From Methylovulum sp. (GTDB lineage: Bacteria > Pseudomonadota > Gammaproteobacteria > Methylococcales > Methylomonadaceae), in the NCBI RefSeq assembly GCF_028687615.1, contig NZ_JAQTZU010000002.1, forward strand, positions 124,001-188,000: DNA of 64,000 nt. The letters run 5' to 3'. The translations under genes and the position numbers were made by a program. Shown here in pieces: positions 13,413 to 24,914 of this stretch (its first letter is position 1; the number at the start of each line of letters is the position of its first letter). The notes under the pieces are model-generated. The model searched no databases. It was given only the letters and a program-made list of their open reading frames with translations, and was not told where the DNA came from.

Positions 13413-13588
13413 ATTTATGACAAATTCATAACAAGGACAACTGGTTTCTATCAGCGTCATAGGTTAAAATTACCCAGTATATTTGTGATTATTATAACGT
13501 AAAGGGAAAAGTCGGCCCAGGCTGCTTGGATATTACGAACGATATGACGCACACAAGAGTTTATAACTACTATCGAAGGGGCTGCTCC

Positions 13589-15115
13589 GTGAAAAATACA
13601 AAGCAACTATTCGCAGGTCTGTTTTTAATGGCTTCAAGTCTTGGAACAGCGCAGGCGGAATATACGCTCAATTTAACAAAAGGGGTCACAAAGGTCAGTC
13701 ATGACGTTTATGACCTGCACATGCTGATTCTATGGATTTGCGTAATCATTGGCCTTGGTGTGTTCGGCACTATGTTTTACTCGATTTACCATCACCGTAA
13801 GTCGAAAGGGCATAAAGCGGCACAATTTCATGAAAACACGACTGTTGAAATCATCTGGACGATTATTCCTACCTTGATCTTGGTGGGTATGGCGATACCC
13901 GCCACGAAAACTTTGATGGAGCTTGACGATGTGCAAGATTCCGAGATGTCCATCAAAGTGACGGGATGGCAGTGGAAATGGGAGTACGATTATCTGGATA
14001 ATGGCATCCATTTTTTTAGTAGCCTTGATGAGGCCAGTAACAAGGCGCGTCAAGTCGGTTCGGGCGTTGACCCCCGTTCAGTTCCGCATTATCTGTTAAA
14101 TGTTGACCACCCTTTGGTCATCCCGACCAAAAAGAAAATCCGTTTTCTCTTTACCGGTGCGGATGTGATCCATTCCTGGTGGGTGCCTGATTTGGGCTGG
14201 AAAAAAGACGCTATCCCGGGCTTTATTAATGAATCTTGGACTTCGGTCGATAAACCCGGCACTTATCGCGGCCAATGTACTGAGTTATGCGGCAAAGACC
14301 ACGGTTTTATGCCGATTGTCGTGGTTGCTATGGATCAGCCCGATTATGATGCCTGGGTTAAAAAGACTCAGGATGAATCGCAAAAAGGGGCTGATTTGAG
14401 TGACCAAAGCCATGATCAGTTGGTATCTAAAGGGGCGGGCGTTTATGCAAAAAACTGTTCGACCTGCCATTTGCCTGATGGCAAAGGTGTTCCGGGGGCA
14501 TTTCCTGCCATTACCGGCAGCGCGGTGGTCAAAGGCGATATCAATGCCCAAATCAATTTGGTCTTGAATGGCAAGGGCGGAATGCCGGCGTTTGCAAAAA
14601 TGTTAAAAGCTGATGAGTTGGCGCAAGTTATCACTTTTACCCGTAATGCACTGGGTAATGCTGTTGGCGATGAAATACAGCCAAAAGCCATACAAGAGTT
14701 ATTGCCAAAAAAATCAGCCGCACCTGTTGTTAAAACAGAGGTTAAAGCCGCAACGCCCGAAAAAGTAGAAGCTGTTGCCGATATGTCCAAAGACGAGTTA
14801 ATCGCTTTAGGAAAATCGGTTTATGACAGTAACTGTAGCTCTTGCCATCAACCGGAAGGGCAGGGCATGGCTCCTATGTTCCCTGCGTTAAAAGGCAGTG
14901 CTTTGATCAAGGGCGACATTAATGCCCAGGTGGATTTATTGTTGAATGGAAAAGGCATGATGCCTGCTTTTGGTCATACGTTAAATGCAAAAGATTTTGC
15001 CTCGGTTGTTACCTTTACCCGCAATAGCTTGGGCAATTCGACCAATGATGTTATACAACCATCAGCCATACAAAAATTGCAAGCCGCCCTGCCGCCTGCA
15101 CAGGACGATGAATAA
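13589..15115 (+). CDS. coxB: Cytochrome c oxidase subunit II with two C-terminal cytochrome c domains
   Basis: Starting at the GTG at 13589 (GAAGGGG ribosome binding site at 13575) gives 508 residues with a signal peptide ending AQA; an upstream in-frame TTG lacks such support. Two membrane segments (about 43-63 and 88-106) are followed by the CuA cupredoxin domain with ligands H195, C230, E232, C234, H238 and M241 (QCTELCGKDHGFM). Then come two class I cytochrome c domains, hemes bound by CSTCH (290-294) and CSSCH (416-420), joined by a Pro/Ala/Lys linker. The two domains are clearly duplicated (KGDINAQ...LNGKG.MPAF in both). One c domain is usual in caa3 oxidases; two are uncommon. First gene of the cox operon; passes electrons to subunit I. 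Confidence 0.95.
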   Translation: MKNTKQLFAGLFLMASSLGTAQAEYTLNLTKGVTKVSHDVYDLHMLILWICVIIGLGVFGTMFYSIYHHRKSKGHKAAQFHENTTVEIIWTIIPTLILVGMAIPATKTLMELDDVQDSEMSIKVTGWQWKWEYDYLDNGIHFFSSLDEASNKARQVGSGVDPRSVPHYLLNVDHPLVIPTKKKIRFLFTGADVIHSWWVPDLGWKKDAIPGFINESWTSVDKPGTYRGQCTELCGKDHGFMPIVVVAMDQPDYDAWVKKTQDESQKGADLSDQSHDQLVSKGAGVYAKNCSTCHLPDGKGVPGAFPAITGSAVVKGDINAQINLVLNGKGGMPAFAKMLKADELAQVITFTRNALGNAVGDEIQPKAIQELLPKKSAAPVVKTEVKAATPEKVEAVADMSKDELIALGKSVYDSNCSSCHQPEGQGMAPMFPALKGSALIKGDINAQVDLLLNGKGMMPAFGHTLNAKDFASVVTFTRNSLGNSTNDVIQPSAIQKLQAALPPAQDDE

Positions 15116-15171
15116 GGCATCACTGATTCTTGTCCATTTACGCTTTTTCTATTATTTCGAGGTATAAAACT

Positions 15172-16791
15172 ATGTCTGCTGTTGTAGCTGAACATGATGG
15201 TCATCATCACGATGATCACGCCCACGGCCCTGAGAAAGGCTTGTTAAGATGGATAGTGACCACTAACCATAAAGATATTGGTACGCTTTATTTATTGTTT
15301 GCGCTGACCATGTTTTTTGTCGGTGGGGCTATGGCGCTGGTTATCCGTGCCGAGTTGTTTGAGCCAGGTTTGCAGTTTGTTGAGCCGCAGTTTTTTAATT
15401 CAATGACCACCATGCACGCGCTGGTCATGGTGTTCGGTGCGGTTATGCCGGGCTTTGTGGGGCTGGCTAACTGGATGATCCCGATGATGATTGGCGCGCC
15501 GGATATGGCGTTGCCACGCATGAACAATATGAGTTTCTGGATGTTGGTTGCCGGGGTTTTATTGCTGGCAAGCACTTTGTTTATGGAAGGCGGCGCACCT
15601 GCTGCGGGCTGGACATTGTATCCGCCGTTGGTTTTGCAAACGGGTAAGGCCCTGCCTTTTGCGATATTTTCAGTGCATTTACTGGGGGTTTCGTCAATCA
15701 TGGGGGCGATCAACATTATCGCCACTATTTTCAATATGCGTGCGCCTGGCATGACCTTGATGAAAATGCCATTGTTTGTTTGGACTTGGTTGATCACCGC
15801 CTTTTTGTTGATTGCGGTCATGCCGGTTTTTGCAGGCGCGGTGACCATGTTGTTGACCGACCGGTTTTTTGACACCAGCTTTTTTGATGCCGCAGGTGGC
15901 GGTGACCCTGTCCTTTACCAGCATATTTTCTGGTTTTTCGGCCATCCTGAAGTTTACATCATGATTTTGCCGACTTTTGGCGTGGCTTCGACCATTATTC
16001 CTGTGTTTGCCCGCAAGCCTTTGTTTGGGTACAGCTCTATGGTTTATGCGACCGCATCAATTGCTTTCTTATCATTCGTCGTTTGGGCGCATCACATGTT
16101 CACCGTCGGTATGCCGATAGCCGGTGAACTGTATTTCATGTACGCAACCATGTTAATCGCGATTCCTACGGGTGTTAAGGTGTTTAACTGGACAGCGACT
16201 ATGTGGAAAGGCTCCATGACTTTTGAAACCCCCATGTTGTTTTCAATTGCTTTTGTCGTGTTGTTTACCCTAGGCGGTTTCACTGGCCTGATGATGTCGA
16301 TTGCGCCATCTGATTTCCAATACCATGACACTTATTTTATCGTTGCCCATTTCCATTACACCTTGGTTCCGGCGTCGGTCTTTATTCTGATGGCGGCAGG
16401 ATATTATTGGTTGCCCAAATGGACAGGCCACATGTACAACGAAAAAATCGGCCAATTGCATTTTTGGTTATCTGTCGTATCAGTCAATATTTTGTTTTTT
16501 CCCCAGCATTTCTTGGGACTGGCAGGTATGCCGCGCCGGATTCCAGATTATGCCGTGCAATTTGCAGATTGGAATATGATTTCCAGCGTCGGCGGTTTTA
16601 TCTTTGGAATTAGCCAATTGTTATTTTTGTATATCGTCATTGATACTATCAGAGGCGGAACTGGTGAAAAAGTCAGTGATGAAGTGTGGGAAGATGCACA
16701 TAAACACGGTTTGGAGTGGACTTTACCATCACCTCCACCGTACCACTCATTTACTACACCACCGACTGTAATTCCGACTGAGCATATTTAA
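15172..16791 (+). CDS. coxA: Cytochrome c oxidase subunit I
   Basis: A 539-residue protein from the ATG at 15172 with a CGAGGT ribosome binding site. The N-terminal cytoplasmic part has a His/Asp-rich cluster ([13 protein letters not shown]). Twelve membrane segments follow with the heme and copper ligands: [10 protein letters not shown] (low-spin heme), [10 protein letters not shown] (CuB His cross-linked to Tyr), WAHHMFTVG (CuB) and VAHFHYTLV (high- and low-spin heme). The K-channel Tyr in HPEVY and the D-channel pattern place it with A-type heme-copper oxidases. It is the catalytic proton-pumping subunit. Whether it carries heme A is open because the adjacent heme A synthase domain appears degenerate. 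Confidence 0.97.
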
Positions 16792-16861: not shown

Positions 16862-16960
16862 ATGAAAACAAAAACAAAAAATATTTTGACGGCGGTATTA
16901 TTGGCAATTGTCGCTATTGCAATCTATGTGTTTGCAGTGATCAAGGCGGTTTCTCAATGA
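16862..16960 (+). CDS. Small single-span membrane protein between coxA and ctaG
   Basis: A 32-residue frame, [20 protein letters not shown] and on to AVIKAVSQ, with a basic N-terminus and one transmembrane helix. Its TGA overlaps the ATG of ctaG (ATGA), showing translational coupling, and the CAGGTGACAG bases before it give a plausible ribosome binding site. Short one-span proteins in this slot are known from other proteobacterial cox operons and thought to help oxidase assembly. It is too short for standard ORF cut-offs. Confidence 0.72.
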
Positions 16961-17493
16961 ACGATGATGTCAAGCAAAAAAACGCCAAATTAGTACGCAC
17001 TTTGGTATTCGTGGTGGTTGCTATGTTCGGTTTCGGTTTCGCCCTCGTCCCGCTTTATGACGTGCTCTGTGATATTACCGGACTGAATGGCAAAGTGGCG
17101 TCGGTAGCAGTTAAAGAAATTGTTTATCCGGTTGATAAAGATAGGGAAGTCAGCGTCGAATTTGTGACTTCGCTGAATGAATCGGCACCGATGTTGTTCC
17201 GTTCGGAAACTAAAAAACTGAAAGTTCATCCTGGTGAATATTACACGGTTAATTTTTATGCCGAAAATTTGACGGATAAGGTCATGGTCGCACAGGCAAT
17301 TCCAAGTATTTCACCAGGTTTGGCTGCCGAATATTTTAAAAAGACCGAGTGTTTTTGTTTTACAGAACAAACTTTCAAACCGCGCGAAGGCCGGACGATG
17401 CCGGTACGTTTTGTGGTCGATCCAAATTTACCTAAGCAGTACAAAATAATCACGCTTGCTTATACATTTTTTGATAATACTAAAACACAGTAG
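16957..17493 (+). CDS. ctaG: Cytochrome c oxidase assembly protein CtaG/Cox11
   Basis: A 178-residue protein: short cytoplasmic N-terminus, one membrane anchor ([27 protein letters not shown]) and a periplasmic immunoglobulin-like domain with the copper-binding CFCFTEQ motif at about 128-134. Cox11 delivers copper to the CuB site of subunit I. The conserved NVSPALAAQYF-like stretch appears as [17 protein letters not shown]. Coupled to the small gene upstream and followed 17 bases later by coxC. Confidence 0.95.
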
Positions 17494-17510: not shown

Positions 17511-18395
17511 ATGTCTTCAAACGAAACTTATTACATTCCGCATAAGGCGACCTGGCCGGTGATGGCTACCGCTGGTTTAATGTTGACGCTGGCGGGTTTT
17601 GCAAATTATTTGAACCATTCGTCTATTGGTTCACCCATGATGATTATTGGTTTTGCCATCTTCATCGTGATGCTGGCGGGATGGTTTACGTTACAGGCGA
17701 CTGAGAGCGAAGCGGGCATGTATAGCGCCCAGGTAGGCATTTCCTATCGGATGGGCATGATGTGGTTTATCTTTTCTGAAGTGATGTTTTTTGCCGTTTT
17801 CTTCGGATCACTTTGGTACACCCGCAATTTGTCAGTGCCTTGGTTAGGTGGTGAAGGCATAGGTGCGGCGACTAAAGAATTATTATGGCCCGAATTTGAA
17901 GCCCATTGGCCGACTAACGGCCCAGCTAAATTGATCAACGGCTTGCCGACCCAAGACGGTGAATTTGAGCCTATGGGTGCTTGGGGGCTGCCGTTCTTAA
18001 ACACTCTGATCCTGTTGAGCAGTGGCGTGACGTGTACTTGGGCGCATCATGGTTTGTTGGCAAATAAACGTGAGCAACTGATAAAAGGTTTGATCGCCAC
18101 TGTCGCTTTGGGCTTTTTGTTCGTTGCTTTCCAAGCGTTTGAATATCATGAAGCTTATACCGAAATGGGTCTGACTTTGGGATCAGGTATTTATGGCTCG
18201 ACTTTCTTTATGTTGACCGGTTTTCATGGTTTACATGTTTGTATCGGCGCCATAATTTTGAGCGTGGTGCTGTTCCGTAGCGCCAAAGGCCATTTCAAAC
18301 CGGAAAATCATTTTGCTTTTGAAGCGGCGGCCTGGTATTGGCATTTTGTTGACGTGGTTTGGTTAGGTTTGTTTATTTTTGTGTATCTGATTTAA
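17511..18395 (+). CDS. coxC: Cytochrome c oxidase subunit III
   Basis: A 294-residue seven-helix membrane protein with YYIPHKATWPVMATAGL at the start, FILSEVMFF-like FIFSEVMFFAVFFGSL, and the C-terminal GFHGLHVCIGAIIL...AAAWYWHFVDVVWLGLF signature of subunit III. Glu in FSEVMFF and the WHFVDVVWL pattern are intact. Subunit III stabilises the subunit I proton path. Last gene of the coxB-coxA-small protein-ctaG-coxC operon, closed by a terminator. Confidence 0.96.
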   Translation: MSSNETYYIPHKATWPVMATAGLMLTLAGFANYLNHSSIGSPMMIIGFAIFIVMLAGWFTLQATESEAGMYSAQVGISYRMGMMWFIFSEVMFFAVFFGSLWYTRNLSVPWLGGEGIGAATKELLWPEFEAHWPTNGPAKLINGLPTQDGEFEPMGAWGLPFLNTLILLSSGVTCTWAHHGLLANKREQLIKGLIATVALGFLFVAFQAFEYHEAYTEMGLTLGSGIYGSTFFMLTGFHGLHVCIGAIILSVVLFRSAKGHFKPENHFAFEAAAWYWHFVDVVWLGLFIFVYLI

Positions 18396-18828: not shown

Positions 18829-19539
18829 ATGCCGTTTAAAATAATCCCCACCTTGGTTTATCTGGTTTTGTTGCCGATTTTGCTTGCATTGGGAAACTGG
18901 CAGCTTAACCGTGCAGAAGAAAAACGGCAATTCCTTGTTTTGCAGGAACAGCAAGCCAATAGCGAAGTGATGGCTTTGTCCGTGTCCAGTCAAGATGATG
19001 TGCAAGATTTAAGATATAAAAAAGTACGGTTCACGGGGCATTATGACGTAGCGCATCAATTTTTGCTCGATAATCAGGTTTATGCCGGCAAAGCGGGGTA
19101 TTTTGTGTTGACTCCTTTTGTGCTTGAAAGTGGGGCAAAAGCGGTGTTGGTCAATAGGGGATGGTTGCCTTTAACGCCAAACCGTGCCATTTTGCCAGAT
19201 GTGAAATTTACCAGTATCCAAACAACAATTACGGGAAGAATCAACCAATTTCCGAGTGTCGGCATCAAACTCCCCGAAGCCGATATTCCGGCTGGTAATT
19301 GGCCTTCTGTGGTGCAAGTTGCCGATAGTTCAATTCTGGCTAAGAAACTGGGGTATCCTTTGTTCAGCTTTCAGGTCGAATTGGACAAGCATTTTCCAGA
19401 TGGCTATACCCGCGAATGGCAAACAAGCACCCTGATGCCACCCGAACAACACACCGCTTATGCCATGCAATGGTTTGCGTTGGCTTTAACGTTGACGCTA
19501 CTTTTTATTGTGTACAGTTTAAAAAAATCAAATGATTAA
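18829..19539 (+). CDS. SURF1-family oxidase assembly protein
   Basis: A 236-residue protein with the standard SURF1 layout: N-terminal membrane helix ending in LGNWQLNRAEEKR, a central periplasmic domain (GKAGYFVLTPFVLESGAKAVLVNRGWLP) and a C-terminal helix preceded by PEQHTAYAMQWFALALTL. SURF1 assists heme A insertion into subunit I. The stop overlaps the next gene by 8 bases. The neighbourhood (coxC, DUF2909, SURF1, small thioredoxin-like protein, CtaA) is the normal gammaproteobacterial order. Confidence 0.93.
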   Translation: MPFKIIPTLVYLVLLPILLALGNWQLNRAEEKRQFLVLQEQQANSEVMALSVSSQDDVQDLRYKKVRFTGHYDVAHQFLLDNQVYAGKAGYFVLTPFVLESGAKAVLVNRGWLPLTPNRAILPDVKFTSIQTTITGRINQFPSVGIKLPEADIPAGNWPSVVQVADSSILAKKLGYPLFSFQVELDKHFPDGYTREWQTSTLMPPEQHTAYAMQWFALALTLTLLFIVYSLKKSND

Positions 19540-20269
19540 CCAACAACAAAAAAACCACCTAATTATTTTAGTTATTTTTGGGATGTCGGTCATCCCCGTC
19601 CTGATTGCTTGGAGCCTTAGCAAAAACACCGCTTTGCTGACGGGTAGCGTCAATAAAGGTCAATTAATAAGCCCGGTTGTCGCGACTGATTGGGCCGAAT
19701 TTTCGGGTTTTGACGAATTTTCCGAGAAAAATATTGGCGAAATCAAAGGGCATTGGCTGATAGTTAATGTCATGCCCAAAAACCAATGTGCACAAGTGTG
19801 TTTGGACTCCCTATTAAAAACCAAGCAATTACGTTTGATGCTTAATAAGGAATTGCCACGGACGCGGCGTATTGTAATGATACTTAAGGAAATTAAACCT
19901 GGAATCGCTAAACAGTATTGGCTTAAGGATGCTTTGTTATGGCGGTTGCGCCAAACCCAAAACAAACAAGATGAAGCGTTGTTTACAGAGTTGTTGCATG
20001 AACAAAATAAACTTGACGACGCATTGGTTACAAAATTGATAGCTCAGGACAAACCTGAGCTTGCCTCCAGTTCTGATTTAATCAGGATCAAACCTAGCAT
20101 TAGTTTGATAAAAAAAATGACCGACATTAGAAAAAGCGATATACCCGATGGCATGTTGTTTTTAATCGACCCGTTGGGCAACTTGATGATGCAATACGAG
20201 CCTGGATTTGATCCTTACCAAGTGAAAAGTGATCTTATGCACCTGTTGAAAATCTCCCAAATTGGTTAA
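19532..20269 (+). CDS. Membrane-anchored thioredoxin-fold-like protein of the oxidase cluster
   Basis: A 245-residue protein with one N-terminal membrane helix (LIILVIFGMSVIPVLIAWSLS) and a periplasmic domain. IKGHWLIVNVMPKNQCAQVCLDSLLKTKQLRLMLNKE resembles SCO/thioredoxin-fold proteins, with a C-x3-C pair, and the C-terminal IPDGMLFLIDPLGNLMMQYEPGFDP matches the end of that fold. Proteins of this kind occupy the slot between surf1 and ctaA in other gammaproteobacteria and are assumed to act in oxidase maturation. A charged stretch around 145-180 (NKQDEALFTELLHEQNKLDD) looks like an insertion relative to the shorter relatives I know. Function is inferred. Confidence 0.75.
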   Translation: MINQQQKNHLIILVIFGMSVIPVLIAWSLSKNTALLTGSVNKGQLISPVVATDWAEFSGFDEFSEKNIGEIKGHWLIVNVMPKNQCAQVCLDSLLKTKQLRLMLNKELPRTRRIVMILKEIKPGIAKQYWLKDALLWRLRQTQNKQDEALFTELLHEQNKLDDALVTKLIAQDKPELASSSDLIRIKPSISLIKKMTDIRKSDIPDGMLFLIDPLGNLMMQYEPGFDPYQVKSDLMHLLKISQIG

Positions 20270-20289: not shown

Positions 20290-22257
20290 ATGTTTAGAAA
20301 ATTAACCCTGTTTAGCGTTGTCCTGGCGTTAATCGTTATCGTATTAGGTGCCTACAGCCGATTTTCCGGCGGGCAACTGAGTTGCCCCGACTGGCCGACT
20401 TGTTACGGGCAGTTATTCATCGGTGATATTTCGCAGTTGAACATGCCATCGGGTGTTGGACTTGTTGGCATTTGGAAAGAACTTGCCTACCGTTATGCTT
20501 ACCTATTGTTAGGCTTGATTATTTTGCCGATGGTTATATTAAGTTGGCGGGAAAAATCCTCTCGGCTTGTCGCGGTGGCAACAATGTCGGCATTGTTGGT
20601 TTGCGTCGGTTCGCAGGCCATTTTGAATTATTGGCTGGTCAAGCTACAGGCCATGCCGATAGTCGTGACAGGCAGCATAATTCTAAATATGGTTAGTTTT
20701 TGGCTGTTGTGTGGATTGTATCTGTACAGTAAAGCCAATATTATTTTGCTAAACAAGGCTGCTTCAGTTTGGTTTTGCCGGTTTGCCATGCTGGTTTTAT
20801 TTTTGCAGATTAGCTTAGGTGCGTGGGTCAGTGCCAACCATGCCAGCTTGGTGTGTGTCGGGTTTCCACAATGCAACGGGCAATGGCTGCCCGTAGCGGA
20901 TTATCAAAACGCTTTGAATTTATTAGGCGGTTTGCTTAGTGGCTATAGTGGTGATTTGTCTTATGACCAGCAAGTGGCGGTCAATGTCTTGCACCGCTGG
21001 GGCGCGGTGGTGTGTTTCTTCCTGTTGACTGCATTGATATGGGGCAGCCTGTCGGTAAATAAACCCAGACCCGTCAGGGTGGCTGCTTTATGGTTAAGCC
21101 TCTTGGTTTTTGTTGAAATTAGCTTGGGCATTGCTGGTTTTAAATTAGCAATGCCTGTATGGGTCGTCGTTGTCCACAATGCAATAGCTGCATTGTTAAT
21201 GTTGCCGTTGCTGGCGATCAGTTTTTATAGTCGCTATGGATTGATGGAAGCCGAACCGGTGCTTGCCGGACCGGAACCGGCGGTTGCCACGGTCAGCGAA
21301 GATATTGCCGAAGCGCTTTATGAAGAACCCGCTCCTGAATCATTGTTGTTGCGGCTGAAAAGCCAACTAAAACGTACCCGTTCAGGTTTGGGCGGTATTT
21401 TGACGAATCTGGCACTGGGTTCCAAGGCAATTGACCAGGATTTGCTTGAAGATCTGGAAACCCGTTTATTGATGGCGGACATAGGCATTAATGTCACTAC
21501 CGACATTATCGCGCAGTTGACGCAACGGCTTGAACGCCATCAACTCAGCGACGGCGAAGCATTGTCGGCGGCTTTGAAAGAAGAATTGCTCAATATTTTA
21601 CAGCCGTGCAACCAGCCGTTGTGCATACCGAAACAAGATAAGCCTTTTGTCATTTTGGTCGTCGGCGTCAATGGTGCTGGCAAAACCACGACCATAGGCA
21701 AATTAGCCAAACGTTTGCAGGTGCAAGGCCACAGCGTCATGCTGGCGGCGGGTGACACGTTTCGGGCGGCGGCGGTTGAACAATTGCAAACCTGGGGAGA
21801 ACGGAACAAGATCCATGTCGTGGCGCAGCATACCGGTGCCGATTCGGCCTCAGTGATTTATGATGGTGTGCAATCCGCCCAGGCCAAGGGCATAGACGTG
21901 TTGATCGCCGACACCGCAGGACGTTTGCATACCAAATCGAATCTGATGGACGAATTGAAAAAAGTCAAACGTATCATGGCTAAGTTGGATGAAACTGCGC
22001 CGCATGAAGTGTTGCTGGTATTGGATGCGGGGACTGGACAAAATGCCTTGTCGCAAGCGAAATTGTTCAATGAAGCTGTAGCCTTAACGGGTTTGGTGTT
22101 GACCAAATTGGATGGCACGGCAAAAGGCGGCGTGATTTTTGCCCTTGCTAAACAATCAGGCATTCCTATCCGTTTTATCGGTATCGGCGAAGGTATTGAT
22201 GATTTGCAAGATTTTAATGCCGAAAATTTTGTAAACGCCTTATTTGCCAATGATTAA
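20290..22257 (+). CDS. Fusion of a degenerate heme A synthase (CtaA/COX15-like) with the SRP receptor FtsY
   Basis: One uninterrupted 655-residue frame. Residues 1-315 have eight membrane helices and the CtaA cysteine motifs SCPDWPTC and CVGFPQC. Conserved His of the C-terminal half are present (H235 in VLHRWG, H296 in VVHNAIAALL), but the two of the N-terminal half are replaced: KELAYRY (Y67 where EXXHR is expected) and VVTGSI (S129 where VVTxH is expected). Residues about 320-350 are acidic, like an FtsY A domain, followed by a complete NG GTPase: RTRSGLGG, P-loop GVNGAGKTTT (459-468), DTFRAAAVEQL, DTAGR (541-545) and TKLDGTAKGG. Met319 (position 21244) could start FtsY alone but lacks a ribosome binding site. 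ftsE and ftsX follow. ctaB, normally next to ctaA, is missing. Confidence 0.9.
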   Translation: MFRKLTLFSVVLALIVIVLGAYSRFSGGQLSCPDWPTCYGQLFIGDISQLNMPSGVGLVGIWKELAYRYAYLLLGLIILPMVILSWREKSSRLVAVATMSALLVCVGSQAILNYWLVKLQAMPIVVTGSIILNMVSFWLLCGLYLYSKANIILLNKAASVWFCRFAMLVLFLQISLGAWVSANHASLVCVGFPQCNGQWLPVADYQNALNLLGGLLSGYSGDLSYDQQVAVNVLHRWGAVVCFFLLTALIWGSLSVNKPRPVRVAALWLSLLVFVEISLGIAGFKLAMPVWVVVVHNAIAALLMLPLLAISFYSRYGLMEAEPVLAGPEPAVATVSEDIAEALYEEPAPESLLLRLKSQLKRTRSGLGGILTNLALGSKAIDQDLLEDLETRLLMADIGINVTTDIIAQLTQRLERHQLSDGEALSAALKEELLNILQPCNQPLCIPKQDKPFVILVVGVNGAGKTTTIGKLAKRLQVQGHSVMLAAGDTFRAAAVEQLQTWGERNKIHVVAQHTGADSASVIYDGVQSAQAKGIDVLIADTAGRLHTKSNLMDELKKVKRIMAKLDETAPHEVLLVLDAGTGQNALSQAKLFNEAVALTGLVLTKLDGTAKGGVIFALAKQSGIPIRFIGIGEGIDDLQDFNAENFVNALFAND

Positions 22258-22282: not shown

Positions 22283-22939
22283 ATGTTAAAGTTTGAAAAT
22301 GTCAGTAAACGTTATCAGGAAACCGGCGAAGTGTTGCGTGATGTCAGTTTCCATTTACGGCACGGTGAGCTTGCTTTTCTGACTGGACATTCGGGGGCGG
22401 GCAAGAGCACTTTGTTAAAATTGATTGGGGTGATGGAACGCTGCAATAAAGGCCAAATATTTCTTGATGGTGAAAACCTAAGCCATGCAAAAGAAAAGCA
22501 AATCCCCTACTTGCGCCGTAAAATGGGCTTTATTTATCAAGATTACAAGCTGTTACAAGACCGGACGGTGTTTGACAATGTTGCATTGCCATTGGTGATC
22601 GCAGGTTTTGGACATCAGGAAATTGGCCGTAAAGTGAGGGCGGTGTTGGATAAAGTCGGCCTGTCGGGCAAGGAAAAAAAATTCCCGTTGGCTTTGTCGG
22701 GCGGGGAGCAGCAACGGGTTGGAATTGCACGGGCGGTGGTAAATAAACCGCCGATTATCATCGCCGATGAGCCGACAGGTAATCTTGATCCTGAATTATC
22801 TTCTGAAATCATGAGCTTGTTTGAAAGTTTCCAGCAAGTCGGCGTTACCGTATTCATCGCATCGCATGATATTTCGTTGATAAAAAAAATGAACCATCGT
22901 GTGTTAAAGCTTGACCACGGCCAATTGGTGTCGAGCTAG
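22283..22939 (+). CDS. ftsE: Cell division ATP-binding protein FtsE
   Basis: A 218-residue ABC ATPase: Walker A GHSGAGKSTLL (about 37-47), Q-loop FIYQDYKLL, signature LSGGEQQRVGIARAVV and Walker B IIIADEPTGNLD. The sequence FENVSKRYQETGEVLRDVSFHL is typical for FtsE. With FtsX it forms a membrane complex that activates periplasmic peptidoglycan hydrolases at the septum. Its stop (TAG) is directly followed by the ftsX ATG, and it lies 25 bases downstream of the ctaA-ftsY fusion, in the standard ftsYEX order. Confidence 0.96.
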   Translation: MLKFENVSKRYQETGEVLRDVSFHLRHGELAFLTGHSGAGKSTLLKLIGVMERCNKGQIFLDGENLSHAKEKQIPYLRRKMGFIYQDYKLLQDRTVFDNVALPLVIAGFGHQEIGRKVRAVLDKVGLSGKEKKFPLALSGGEQQRVGIARAVVNKPPIIIADEPTGNLDPELSSEIMSLFESFQQVGVTVFIASHDISLIKKMNHRVLKLDHGQLVSS

Positions 22940-23974
22940 ATGAACAAATATAATAAAAGACGGCAACAGACACGGGAAGTCAAACCGCCTAAATATCTTA
23001 AACCGGCTAAATCCGATAGCCGCCAGAATACGGTGGCTGGCGGTAGTTTTATGGATAAGCTAAATGCTTACCGTGACCTTCATGCCCATGCCCTTTTTTC
23101 CAGTTTAGGGCGCTTGGTGGCATCGCCATTCACATCTATCATGACCGTTGCTGTGCTCGCCATTGCCATATCCTTGGCTAGCGGTTTTTATCTGGTGTTG
23201 GTCAATTTTCAGCAATTGACCAGTCATTTGGAGACCAGCACACAAATTTCCTTGTTCCTTAAAGAGGAAGTGTCAGAACTCCATGCCAAAAAGCTGGCGG
23301 ATGGCATCAGAAACAAGCCTGAAGTACAGCAAGTCACGTTGATTAACAAGGAGCAGGGCTTAGCGGAATTTAAAACTTACAGTGGTTTTGGTTCAGCTAT
23401 TTCTGCTTTAAAAACCAATCCCTTACCAATAGTTATCCAGGTATTGCCGAAAAATTCCCTGACTGACAAGCGGCAACTTGAGGCACTTTTGCATGAATTC
23501 CAGCAAAATGTGGACGTTGATCTGGCCCAGATGGATATGCAATGGCTAGAGCGTTTGCAGTCGATTATCGCCGTTGGCGAGTGTGCGGCGACCATACTTA
23601 ACCTGATGCTGGGTTTGGCGGTATTGTTTATTACCGCAAACACCATTCGTCTGGAGCTTCATAGCCGTCGTGAAGAAGTGATTATCGCCAAATTGGTCGG
23701 AGCCACTCATGGCTTTATTCAGAGACCGTTTTTATACGCCGGTCTATGGATTGGTTTTATCTCTGGTGTTGTGGCTTGGTTTATTGTCACTGCCATGATG
23801 TTGATATTGAGATCACCTGTAGAAACCCTGTCTTCTCTTTATGGCGGCAATTTTCATTTGGTGTTTTTTAGTTTTACAGAAACGCTTAAATTGATCGGAA
23901 TTTCGTCTTTATTGGGTGTTGTAGGCTCCTGGGCTGTTTTGATGTATCAGCTTCAGCATACCAAACCTGAATAA
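22940..23974 (+). CDS. ftsX: Cell division protein FtsX
   Basis: A 344-residue membrane protein. A basic N-terminal tail (about 45 residues) precedes helix 1 (SIMTVAVLAIAISLASGFYL), then the large periplasmic loop that engages the hydrolase activator (STQISLFLKEEVSELHAKKLA...), and three helices at the C-terminus with NTIRLELHSRREEVIIAKLVGATHGFIQRPFLYAG, the conserved FtsX coupling region. Start is immediately after the ftsE stop. Confidence 0.95.
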   Translation: MNKYNKRRQQTREVKPPKYLKPAKSDSRQNTVAGGSFMDKLNAYRDLHAHALFSSLGRLVASPFTSIMTVAVLAIAISLASGFYLVLVNFQQLTSHLETSTQISLFLKEEVSELHAKKLADGIRNKPEVQQVTLINKEQGLAEFKTYSGFGSAISALKTNPLPIVIQVLPKNSLTDKRQLEALLHEFQQNVDVDLAQMDMQWLERLQSIIAVGECAATILNLMLGLAVLFITANTIRLELHSRREEVIIAKLVGATHGFIQRPFLYAGLWIGFISGVVAWFIVTAMMLILRSPVETLSSLYGGNFHLVFFSFTETLKLIGISSLLGVVGSWAVLMYQLQHTKPE

Positions 23975-24021: not shown

Positions 24022-24056
24022 AATTTATCCAAGTTTTTACCTATCGGGGGACTAAT

Positions 24057-24914
24057 ATGAGTAACGCCTTAACTTTACCGGTCAATTTATCTGTCGGCAC
24101 CTTTGACGCCTATCTGAATCTTGTTAGACAGATGCCTAAATTAACATCTGAGCAAGAACATGAATTAGCTTTGAAATACCGAGACGATGGTGATCTGGAA
24201 GCGGCTAGGCAACTGGTCATGACCAATCTGCGTTTTGTCGTGCATGTCGCCAAAGGTTACAGCGGTTATGGTTTGTCCATGCCAGATATTGTCCAAGAAG
24301 GCAATGTTGGTTTGATGAAAGCCGTTAAACGTTTTGATCCCGATATGGGGGTACGCTTGGTGTCCTTCGCCGTGCACTGGATCAAGGCTGAAATCCACGA
24401 ATATGTCATCAAAAACTGGGCTATCGTCAAAATTGCGACCACCAAAGCCCAGCGCAAGCTGTTTTTCAATTTACGCAAATCCAAAGATGATTTGGGTTGG
24501 TTGTCCAATAACGAAGCCGAAGCCATTGCCAGTGATTTGAATGTCGAGTTGAGCAGCGTCTACGAAATGGAAAAGCGTCTGGGCAATCGCGATATGCCCT
24601 TTGATATGAGTGATGACGACTCAGATGAAGACAGCTACATCGCACCGGCTAATTATCTTCAGCAACATGGAGCCGACCCTGCAATGCTGCTGGAAAACGC
24701 CGATTGGGGCGGACATGAGCATGATTTGCTGCATGATGCGATGGCGACTTTGGATGAACGTAGCCTGGACATTGTTTCCAGCCGTTGGTTGGCGGAGAAA
24801 AAAGCCACTTTGCATGAGTTGGCGGAACGTTACAATGTTTCGGCGGAGCGGATACGGCAATTGGAACAAAATGCGATGAAGAAACTTAAGGCCGCCGTGG
24901 TCTTAGAAGCTTGA
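24057..24914 (+). CDS. rpoH: RNA polymerase heat-shock sigma factor RpoH (sigma-32)
   Basis: A 285-residue sigma-70-family factor from the ATG at 24057 with GGGGGAC upstream. Region 2 contains NLRFVVHVAKGYSGYGLSMP and DIVQEGNVGLMKAVKRFDP; the RpoH box is recognisable as QRKLFFNLRK; region 4.2 ends AERYNVSAERIRQLEQNAMKKLK. It directs heat-shock transcription. The order ftsY-ftsE-ftsX-rpoH is typical for gammaproteobacteria. A CIRCE element sits in its leader and a terminator follows. Confidence 0.97.
   Translation: MSNALTLPVNLSVGTFDAYLNLVRQMPKLTSEQEHELALKYRDDGDLEAARQLVMTNLRFVVHVAKGYSGYGLSMPDIVQEGNVGLMKAVKRFDPDMGVRLVSFAVHWIKAEIHEYVIKNWAIVKIATTKAQRKLFFNLRKSKDDLGWLSNNEAEAIASDLNVELSSVYEMEKRLGNRDMPFDMSDDDSDEDSYIAPANYLQQHGADPAMLLENADWGGHEHDLLHDAMATLDERSLDIVSSRWLAEKKATLHELAERYNVSAERIRQLEQNAMKKLKAAVVLEA

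Follow-up and report, generated by a model that had tools for sequence, protein, structure and literature searches.

The gene described here encodes an FtsY whose NG GTPase is joined, in one open reading frame, to an eight-helix membrane domain of the heme A synthase (CtaA/COX15) type. Our preferred reading, with a probability of about 0.8, is that an inversion produced a permanently membrane-integral receptor for the signal recognition particle (SRP), in which the CtaA part serves as a pseudo-enzyme anchor. The gene lies in a window of 64,000 nucleotides (the whole stretch of DNA analysed) from a Methylovulum sp.; the fusion is the state of most of one order, the Methylococcales, and not a peculiarity of one genome.

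Domain structure and genomic context of the fusion

A single frame of 655 codons plus stop, with an ATG start and no internal stop, encodes both parts (Table 1). An earlier note on this DNA had described such a frame, joining an eight-helix CtaA/COX15-like domain to a complete FtsY NG region, and Pfam and NCBIfam bear it out. Pfam places COX15-CtaA at residues 4-305 (E 2.8e-36), and the SRP54-type N and G domains of FtsY are both present (SRP54_N at 371-433; SRP54 GTPase at 452-652, E 5.3e-77). The protein scores 368.8 bits against the FtsY equivalog of NCBIfam (cut-off 260.7), and in Foldseek its FtsY part shows 65% identity to E. coli FtsY (6fqd). The best PDB match of the CtaA domain model (pLDDT 91.7) is heme A synthase of B. 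subtilis (6a2j; TM 0.70, E 3.5e-7), and the predicted fold is the eight-helix, two-bundle one of CtaA/COX15 type 1.1. In the models the CtaA part has eight long helices and residues 320-349 of the linker are disordered (pLDDT < 50); the pTM of the full-length model is 0.50, so the arrangement of the domains is not fixed by it.

Table 1. Features of the fusion gene and its neighbours (positions in the window)
Feature	Position	Strand	Basis or remark
coxB with two C-terminal cytochrome c domains	13526..15115	+	upstream, same cluster as fusion
coxA	15130..16791	+	gene order; name presumed
ctaG/cox11	16957..17493	+	gene order; name presumed
coxC	17511..18395	+	gene order; name presumed
surf1-like gene	18829..19539	+	gene order; name presumed
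Conserved gene between surf1 and ctaA, no Pfam family	19532..20269	+	gene order, Pfam
ctaA-ftsY fusion gene, 655 aa	20290..22257	+	frame, Pfam/NCBIfam; conserved across order
CtaA N bundle, aa 1-146, TM1-4, substrate heme O half	20290..20727	+	domain model, alignment, 6a2j match
Tyr67 codon (His60 equivalent)	20488-20490	+	alignment
Ser129 codon (His123 equivalent)	20674-20676	+	alignment
CtaA C bundle, aa 158-315, TM5-8, heme b half	20761..21234	+	alignments, domain model
His235 codon	20992-20994	+	alignment
His296 codon	21175-21177	+	alignment
Flexible acidic/proline linker, aa 319-349	21244..21336	+	pLDDT, motif search
FtsY alphaN1 amphipathic helix with N and G domains, aa 350-655	21337..22254	+	Pfam, NCBIfam, Foldseek, pattern
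ftsE	22283..22939	+	gene order; name presumed
ftsX	22940..23974	+	gene order; name presumed
rpoH	24054..24914	+	start as in gene-order comparison; name presumed

The host genome is of Methylococcales type (3.49 Mb, 56 contigs, 99.96% complete). The earlier note had made its case depend on there being no second intact ftsY; none was found in this genome, where the fusion is the only FtsY copy found and the next SRP-GTPase match (contig 19, 36% identity) is read as an Ffh-type paralog. Being the only copy found is suggestive of an essential role in targeting.

The neighbours, which we take to be coxA, ctaG/cox11, coxC, surf1, ftsE, ftsX and rpoH, set the fusion between oxidase-cluster genes and ftsE-ftsX-rpoH; the ctaB of the host genome is on a different contig, C31. 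The coxB product carries CxxCH twice, after its COX2 domain. The conserved gene immediately upstream of the fusion encodes a CxxxC motif, is also found in the unfused families f7 and f8, and is perhaps an oxidase assembly factor. It had been suggested that the fusion ties protein targeting to this cluster, but the link is not essential: the fusion persists in three loci of family f4 (L144, L145, L146), in which no coxA, coxB or coxC was found in about 9 kb upstream.

Distribution among relatives

Searching related genomes for the same fusion, as the earlier note had proposed, gave an in-frame fusion in 51 of 61 genomes (the host and 60 relatives). Separate genes are present in seven, all from f7 and f8, and three could not be called (a broken frame in G014, a contig end in G015 and, in the 77% complete G023, no FtsY above the Ffh-type matches). 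In an order sample limited to genomes at least 90% complete, 139 of 151 have an open fusion, the genes are separate in 11 (10 in f7, one in f8) and the frame is broken in one (G460). Counted as fused are G468, with both parts in one 787-aa frame, and G026, whose alignment in the order sample begins at residue 239 and whose locus reads as a fusion. G014 and G460 were counted as broken rather than split because their own FtsY frames are broken or cut short. Both loci (L152 in G014) are interrupted by frame changes, in G014 near a seven-A run in the FtsY N domain, and these may perhaps be read errors.

Among the matches listed, carriers include Methylovulum, Methylomicrobium, Methyloprofundus, Methyloglobulus, Methylobacter, Crenothrix and a Bathymodiolus methanotrophic symbiont, and the nearest named genomes are Methylovulum miyakonense (79% identity) and M. 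psychrotolerans (75%). One scan gave 38 fusions among the 80 loci listed, all with titles of Methylococcales type except L059 and L074 (Gammaproteobacteria only) and L080 (thiotrophic symbiont). The L080 fusion, although titled as from a thiotrophic gill symbiont, is 99.2% identical to the methanotrophic symbiont copy L079, which probably reflects cross-contamination or mislabelling.

A class sample of 369 genomes (four of the order and 365 others) was also compared. Among the matches listed, only G000, G029 and G039 align over the CtaA part from its beginning, and outside the order no alignment covers more than its final 34 residues; the lowest alignment starts there were residue 285 (G092, via two stop codons) and residue 307 (G101). 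No CtaA-like upstream part was found in the ten out-of-order rows with open frames of at least 514 aa among those listed; one of these (L206) has a single weak hydrophobic stretch, and the upstream part of another (L211) is largely masked.

A simple link with methane monooxygenase was considered and rejected. PF02461 (AmoA/PmoA family, E ≤ 1e-20) is present in 51 of the 61 genomes; six of the seven unfused f7 and f8 genomes have it, and it was not found in some fused ones (for example, G051).

Origin by inversion

In unfused f7 (L135, L138) and f8 (L134), rsmD and two M16 peptidase genes, all leftward, are followed by rightward ftsY-ftsE-ftsX-rpoH and then by leftward ctaB, ctaA, the conserved gene, surf1, coxC, coxA and coxB; coaD lies beyond rsmD in L135 and L138. 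In fused f6 (L148, L149, L150) the rightward order is coxB to surf1, the conserved gene, ctaA-ftsY, ftsE, ftsX and rpoH, followed by leftward ctaB and rightward M16 peptidase genes and rsmD, with coaD in L148 and L150 (peptidase, UbiA/ctaB, rsmD- and coaD-type genes were assigned by Pfam in these comparisons). Judged from gene order, f6 differs from f7 and f8 by inversion of the block from ftsY to ctaB, between a peptidase gene and ctaA. Sedimenticola (L124), which is outside the order, is also unfused, and the genes compared there, ftsY-ftsE-ftsX-rpoH and ctaA-cox, are convergent as well.

All fusions fall in one clade of the FtsY tree (bootstrap/SH-aLRT 95/95, with the bootstrap not fully settled, some rows long and the fragment L142 left out), and f8 and f7 lie outside it. 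One origin of the fusion, by one inversion, is therefore the simplest reading of these comparisons. In the same tree L062 (titled Methylomagnum ishizawai) groups with Methyloglobulus and L076 (Crenothrix polyspora) with Methylobacter-type rows; the names of these MAGs may be wrong.

Asymmetric decay of the CtaA part

Alignment agrees with the earlier note on the residues of the window protein. In its N half the catalytic Glu is kept (E64) and the two His are replaced, Y67 and S129 standing at the positions of H60 and H123, whereas the C half retains both H235 and H296, and Cys32/38 and Cys189/195 are all kept. The numbers E57, H60, H123, H216 and H278, which we take to be those of B. subtilis, agree with the alignment. 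Excerpts of three papers describe, for characterised enzymes, an N half with the proposed heme O site and a catalytic Glu, a heme b held by two C-half His and, in the eukaryotic enzyme, a need for all four His (PMC13213658, PMC7327177, PMC8239418).

Among 78 distinct fusions the equivalents of E57, H60 and H123 are kept in 19, 44 and 41, respectively, and at least one of the three is missing in 72, the window's included. Those of H216 and H278 are kept in 73 and 76 (both together in 73). Each Cys of pair 2 is retained in 73, and those of pair 1 in 53 and 52. True standalone CtaA rows keep all nine checked residues (48 of 48). Six fusions are also intact at all nine (G024, G025, G030, G034, G040 and G060), so catalysis may survive in some species. 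Conversely, one or both C-half His are missing in five of the 78, so some fusions do without heme b, and in G026 the loop that bears the Cys is gone.

With 85 rows scored on the FtsY tree (free rows taken as intact from their own genome's separate ctaA, and G014 and G015 in the tree but unscored), the fewest changes needed are 15 at E64, 13 at H67 and 14 at H129, positions where the alignment is less certain for those N bundles that diverge most. Three are needed at H235, two at H296, six and seven at Cys pair 1 and three each at Cys pair 2. Mean identity of the N and C bundles is 30.6 and 40.4% in fusions, 52.8 and 46.4% in standalone CtaA (50 rows, including the contig-end piece L090 and the G014 fragment L152) and 75.1 and 60.5% in the separate second CtaA (ctaA2) discussed below. 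The usual order of conservation is thus reversed in the fusions, with the C bundle ahead of the N bundle. An alignment of 35 fusions has 19 columns in residues 1-318 that are invariant or nearly so, and 16 of them, including H235, H296, C189 and C195, fall in the C bundle.

In 20 close pairs dN/dS was 0.12 to 0.43 for the N bundle (17 pairs computable) and 0.07 to 0.21 for the C bundle (18 pairs), synonymous sites being unchanged or saturated in the remainder. These ratios point to a membrane domain under purifying selection. L079 and L080, a near-identical pair, differ by few changes in the CtaA part, all of them non-synonymous. G032 (L161, lineage g14) has an N bundle without TM2-TM3 and a C bundle that is kept; a frame of 565 aa is found in all four g14 genomes of the order sample (L161 is given as 564 aa). 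Without TM2-TM3, L161 would keep six helices, an even number of membrane passes.

A second CtaA in fused genomes

The host genome has a ctaA2 at G000:C6:69984-70877 (L133 9930-11018, minus strand), apart from the cox cluster and beside what is presumably a ygfZ-like gene. A separate CtaA match is present in 48 of the 51 fused genomes (none was found in G011, G040 and G050) and no second CtaA was found in any of the seven unfused ones. The 34 distinct ctaA2 sequences examined have Cys pair 1, neither Cys of pair 2 and, in 34 of 34, Asn in place of H60, a pattern matching 'type 1.3' in Table 1 of PMC8239418, a paper seen in excerpt; the excerpts covered here contain no activity test of a type 1.3-like CtaA. 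We assume that ctaA2 is active and probably makes heme A in most fused species, although its lack of the H60 equivalent speaks against this; such activity would explain why the fused N bundle lost its heme O site many times. G040 (L143, family f5), fused, with all nine residues and no ctaA2 found, may represent an early bifunctional state and is a candidate bifunctional heme A synthase-FtsY.

Membrane contact of the FtsY part

Free FtsY proteins with their N-terminus present (f7, f8 and Sedimenticola) all begin with an MFGFGKKK-like sequence (8 of 8; two further free rows are the G014 and G015 fragments). No lipid-binding motif of this type was found in any of the 78 fusion linkers, which occupy the place of that motif in free FtsY. 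The alphaN1 pattern is present ahead of the N domain in 75 of 78, the three misses carrying related sequence, and all 78 have five to eight hydrophobic stretches before NG. The fusions are therefore not FtsY of the proteobacterial type, which has the alphaA1 lipid motif and no transmembrane domain. As CtaA has its N-terminus inside, an even count of eight helices would put the NG domain in the cytoplasm.

An internal start giving free FtsY has no support as far as ATG codons go. No SD-like 4-mer precedes the in-frame ATG of Met319 in the window; an in-frame ATG with an SD-like 4-mer occurs near the linker in one of 78 fusions and 37 have no in-frame ATG there (the tally covered ATG; GTG and TTG codons are also present in the stretch).

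FtsY of E. coli and other proteobacteria is held at the membrane mainly via two lipid-binding domains (PMC2780400, excerpt). In E. coli alphaA1, the first 14 residues, makes the initial, dynamic contact and alphaN1 the stable, SRP-controlled one, and FtsY stays functional when alphaA1 is swapped either for a transmembrane segment or for a membrane protein unrelated to it (PMC5533587, excerpt). Since alphaA1 is replaceable there and alphaN1 is kept here, the fusion appears to be a natural repeat of this laboratory construct.

Proposed mechanism and alternatives

We propose that inversion of ftsY-ftsE-ftsX-rpoH-ctaB in the ancestor of most Methylococcales joined the 3' end of ctaA to ftsY and, in doing so, removed FtsY's own N-terminal lipid-binding motif. 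The sole SRP receptor would thus have been placed behind an eight-helix membrane domain, with its C-terminus expected to be cytoplasmic. The CtaA part would provide a constant first membrane contact, and alphaN1 with the NG GTPase the SRP-controlled step. Subsequently, the N bundle would have lost its heme O site repeatedly, while the C bundle would have kept the fold, the cysteines and the bis-His heme b site. In the species of the window, the CtaA part is most likely a pseudo-enzyme that binds heme b and acts as the anchor. The earlier note had likewise suggested that catalysis was lost and that the domain became a permanent anchor, which gains support from the fact that no separate FtsY was found and from the missing lipid motif; it also fits the loss of the catalytic half, selection on the membrane domain and the spare CtaA.

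One alternative is that the CtaA part has stayed active in heme A synthesis and merely shares its polypeptide with FtsY. The six fully intact fusions, the 94% complete G040 with no other CtaA match and a dN/dS below 1 for the N bundle in all 17 computable pairs agree with this, but it is improbable as a general explanation, given 72 of 78 fusions with an incomplete catalytic half, the shortened N bundle of G032, the 565-aa frame of all four g14 genomes and a second CtaA alongside the fusion in 48 of 51 genomes. Another is that the fusion is a frozen accident, in which one chain is made, FtsY is freed by proteolysis and the CtaA part is a neutral leader. Cleavage of the linker could release soluble FtsY: the linker is modelled as flexible, a soluble form of FtsY is reported in Streptomyces (PMC6022935, excerpt) and the title of a cited reference reports a cleavable anchor for E. 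coli FtsY. However, as the lipid motif is absent from all linkers, FtsY released in this way would lack its first membrane contact. A neutral leader also sits badly with purifying selection on the membrane domain, with the concentration of near-invariant columns in the C bundle and with a frame kept in 139 of 151 genomes, and we consider it unlikely. An assembly or frameshift artefact, for which the window offers no indication (two other loci, in G014 and G460, are frame-broken), has a negligible chance and was rejected, because the fusion recurs in independent genomes, among them the single-contig G019 and G054.

The preferred reading, a membrane-integral receptor on a pseudo-enzyme anchor, leaves a role for heme to be considered. 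As the C-half heme b site is strongly kept, the anchor is probably not bare, and the retained ligands suggest that heme is still bound in the C bundle, where it may aid folding or trimerisation or, less surely, serve in sensing. In Aquifex heme A synthase the C bundles form the core of a trimer (PMC7327177, excerpt) and, by analogy, the receptor may be trimeric via its C bundles. More speculatively, and in our view doubtful, an SRP receptor containing heme b could have an anchor whose assembly, oligomerisation or redox state depends on heme supply, coupling co-translational insertion to heme or respiratory status.

Whether FtsY needs a soluble phase has been argued from engineered fusions; as a membrane-integral FtsY seems to be the normal state in most of an order, the question becomes testable in nature. 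The order includes methane-oxidising genera, and some of these have large internal membranes. The fusion would also be a clean case of an enzyme that became an anchor through a single inversion: one half has decayed and the half with the heme b site has been kept, so that an SRP receptor dependent on heme is conceivable.

Comparison with known systems

Membrane-integral FtsY is already known, but an anchor of CtaA type was not found described, nor was any CtaA-FtsY fusion, in the titles and abstract starts of open-licence literature, in line with the earlier note. In Streptomyces lividans (Actinobacteria) the NG GTPase likewise follows a hydrophobic N-terminal segment (excerpts of PMC6022935 and PMC2780400). 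That segment is short in Actinobacteria, whereas the Methylococcales fusion uses an eight-helix enzyme domain from another pathway, with its heme site kept. Engineered E. coli FtsY carried on 3L-Pf3 or on an unrelated membrane protein works in vivo (Zelazny 1997, as cited in an excerpt of PMC5533587) and shares with the fusion a permanent anchor in place of the missing alphaA1 and a retained alphaN1-NG; it is man-made, and the Methylococcales form is natural and order-wide. The eukaryotic SRP receptor GTPase SR-alpha is also permanently membrane-held (PMC2780400, excerpt), but by a separate GTPase subunit, SR-beta, in contrast to the fused and putatively heme-binding domain described here.

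With CtaA of type 1.1 (B. subtilis, 6a2j) the fusion has in common the fold of two four-helix bundles, the Cys pairs and the heme b ligands, and it differs in its mostly incomplete catalytic half and in being joined to FtsY. CtaA also takes part in a natural gene fusion with CtaB (PMC8239418, Table 1, seen in excerpt), where the partner catalyses the preceding step in the pathway; in the Methylococcales the partner is FtsY.
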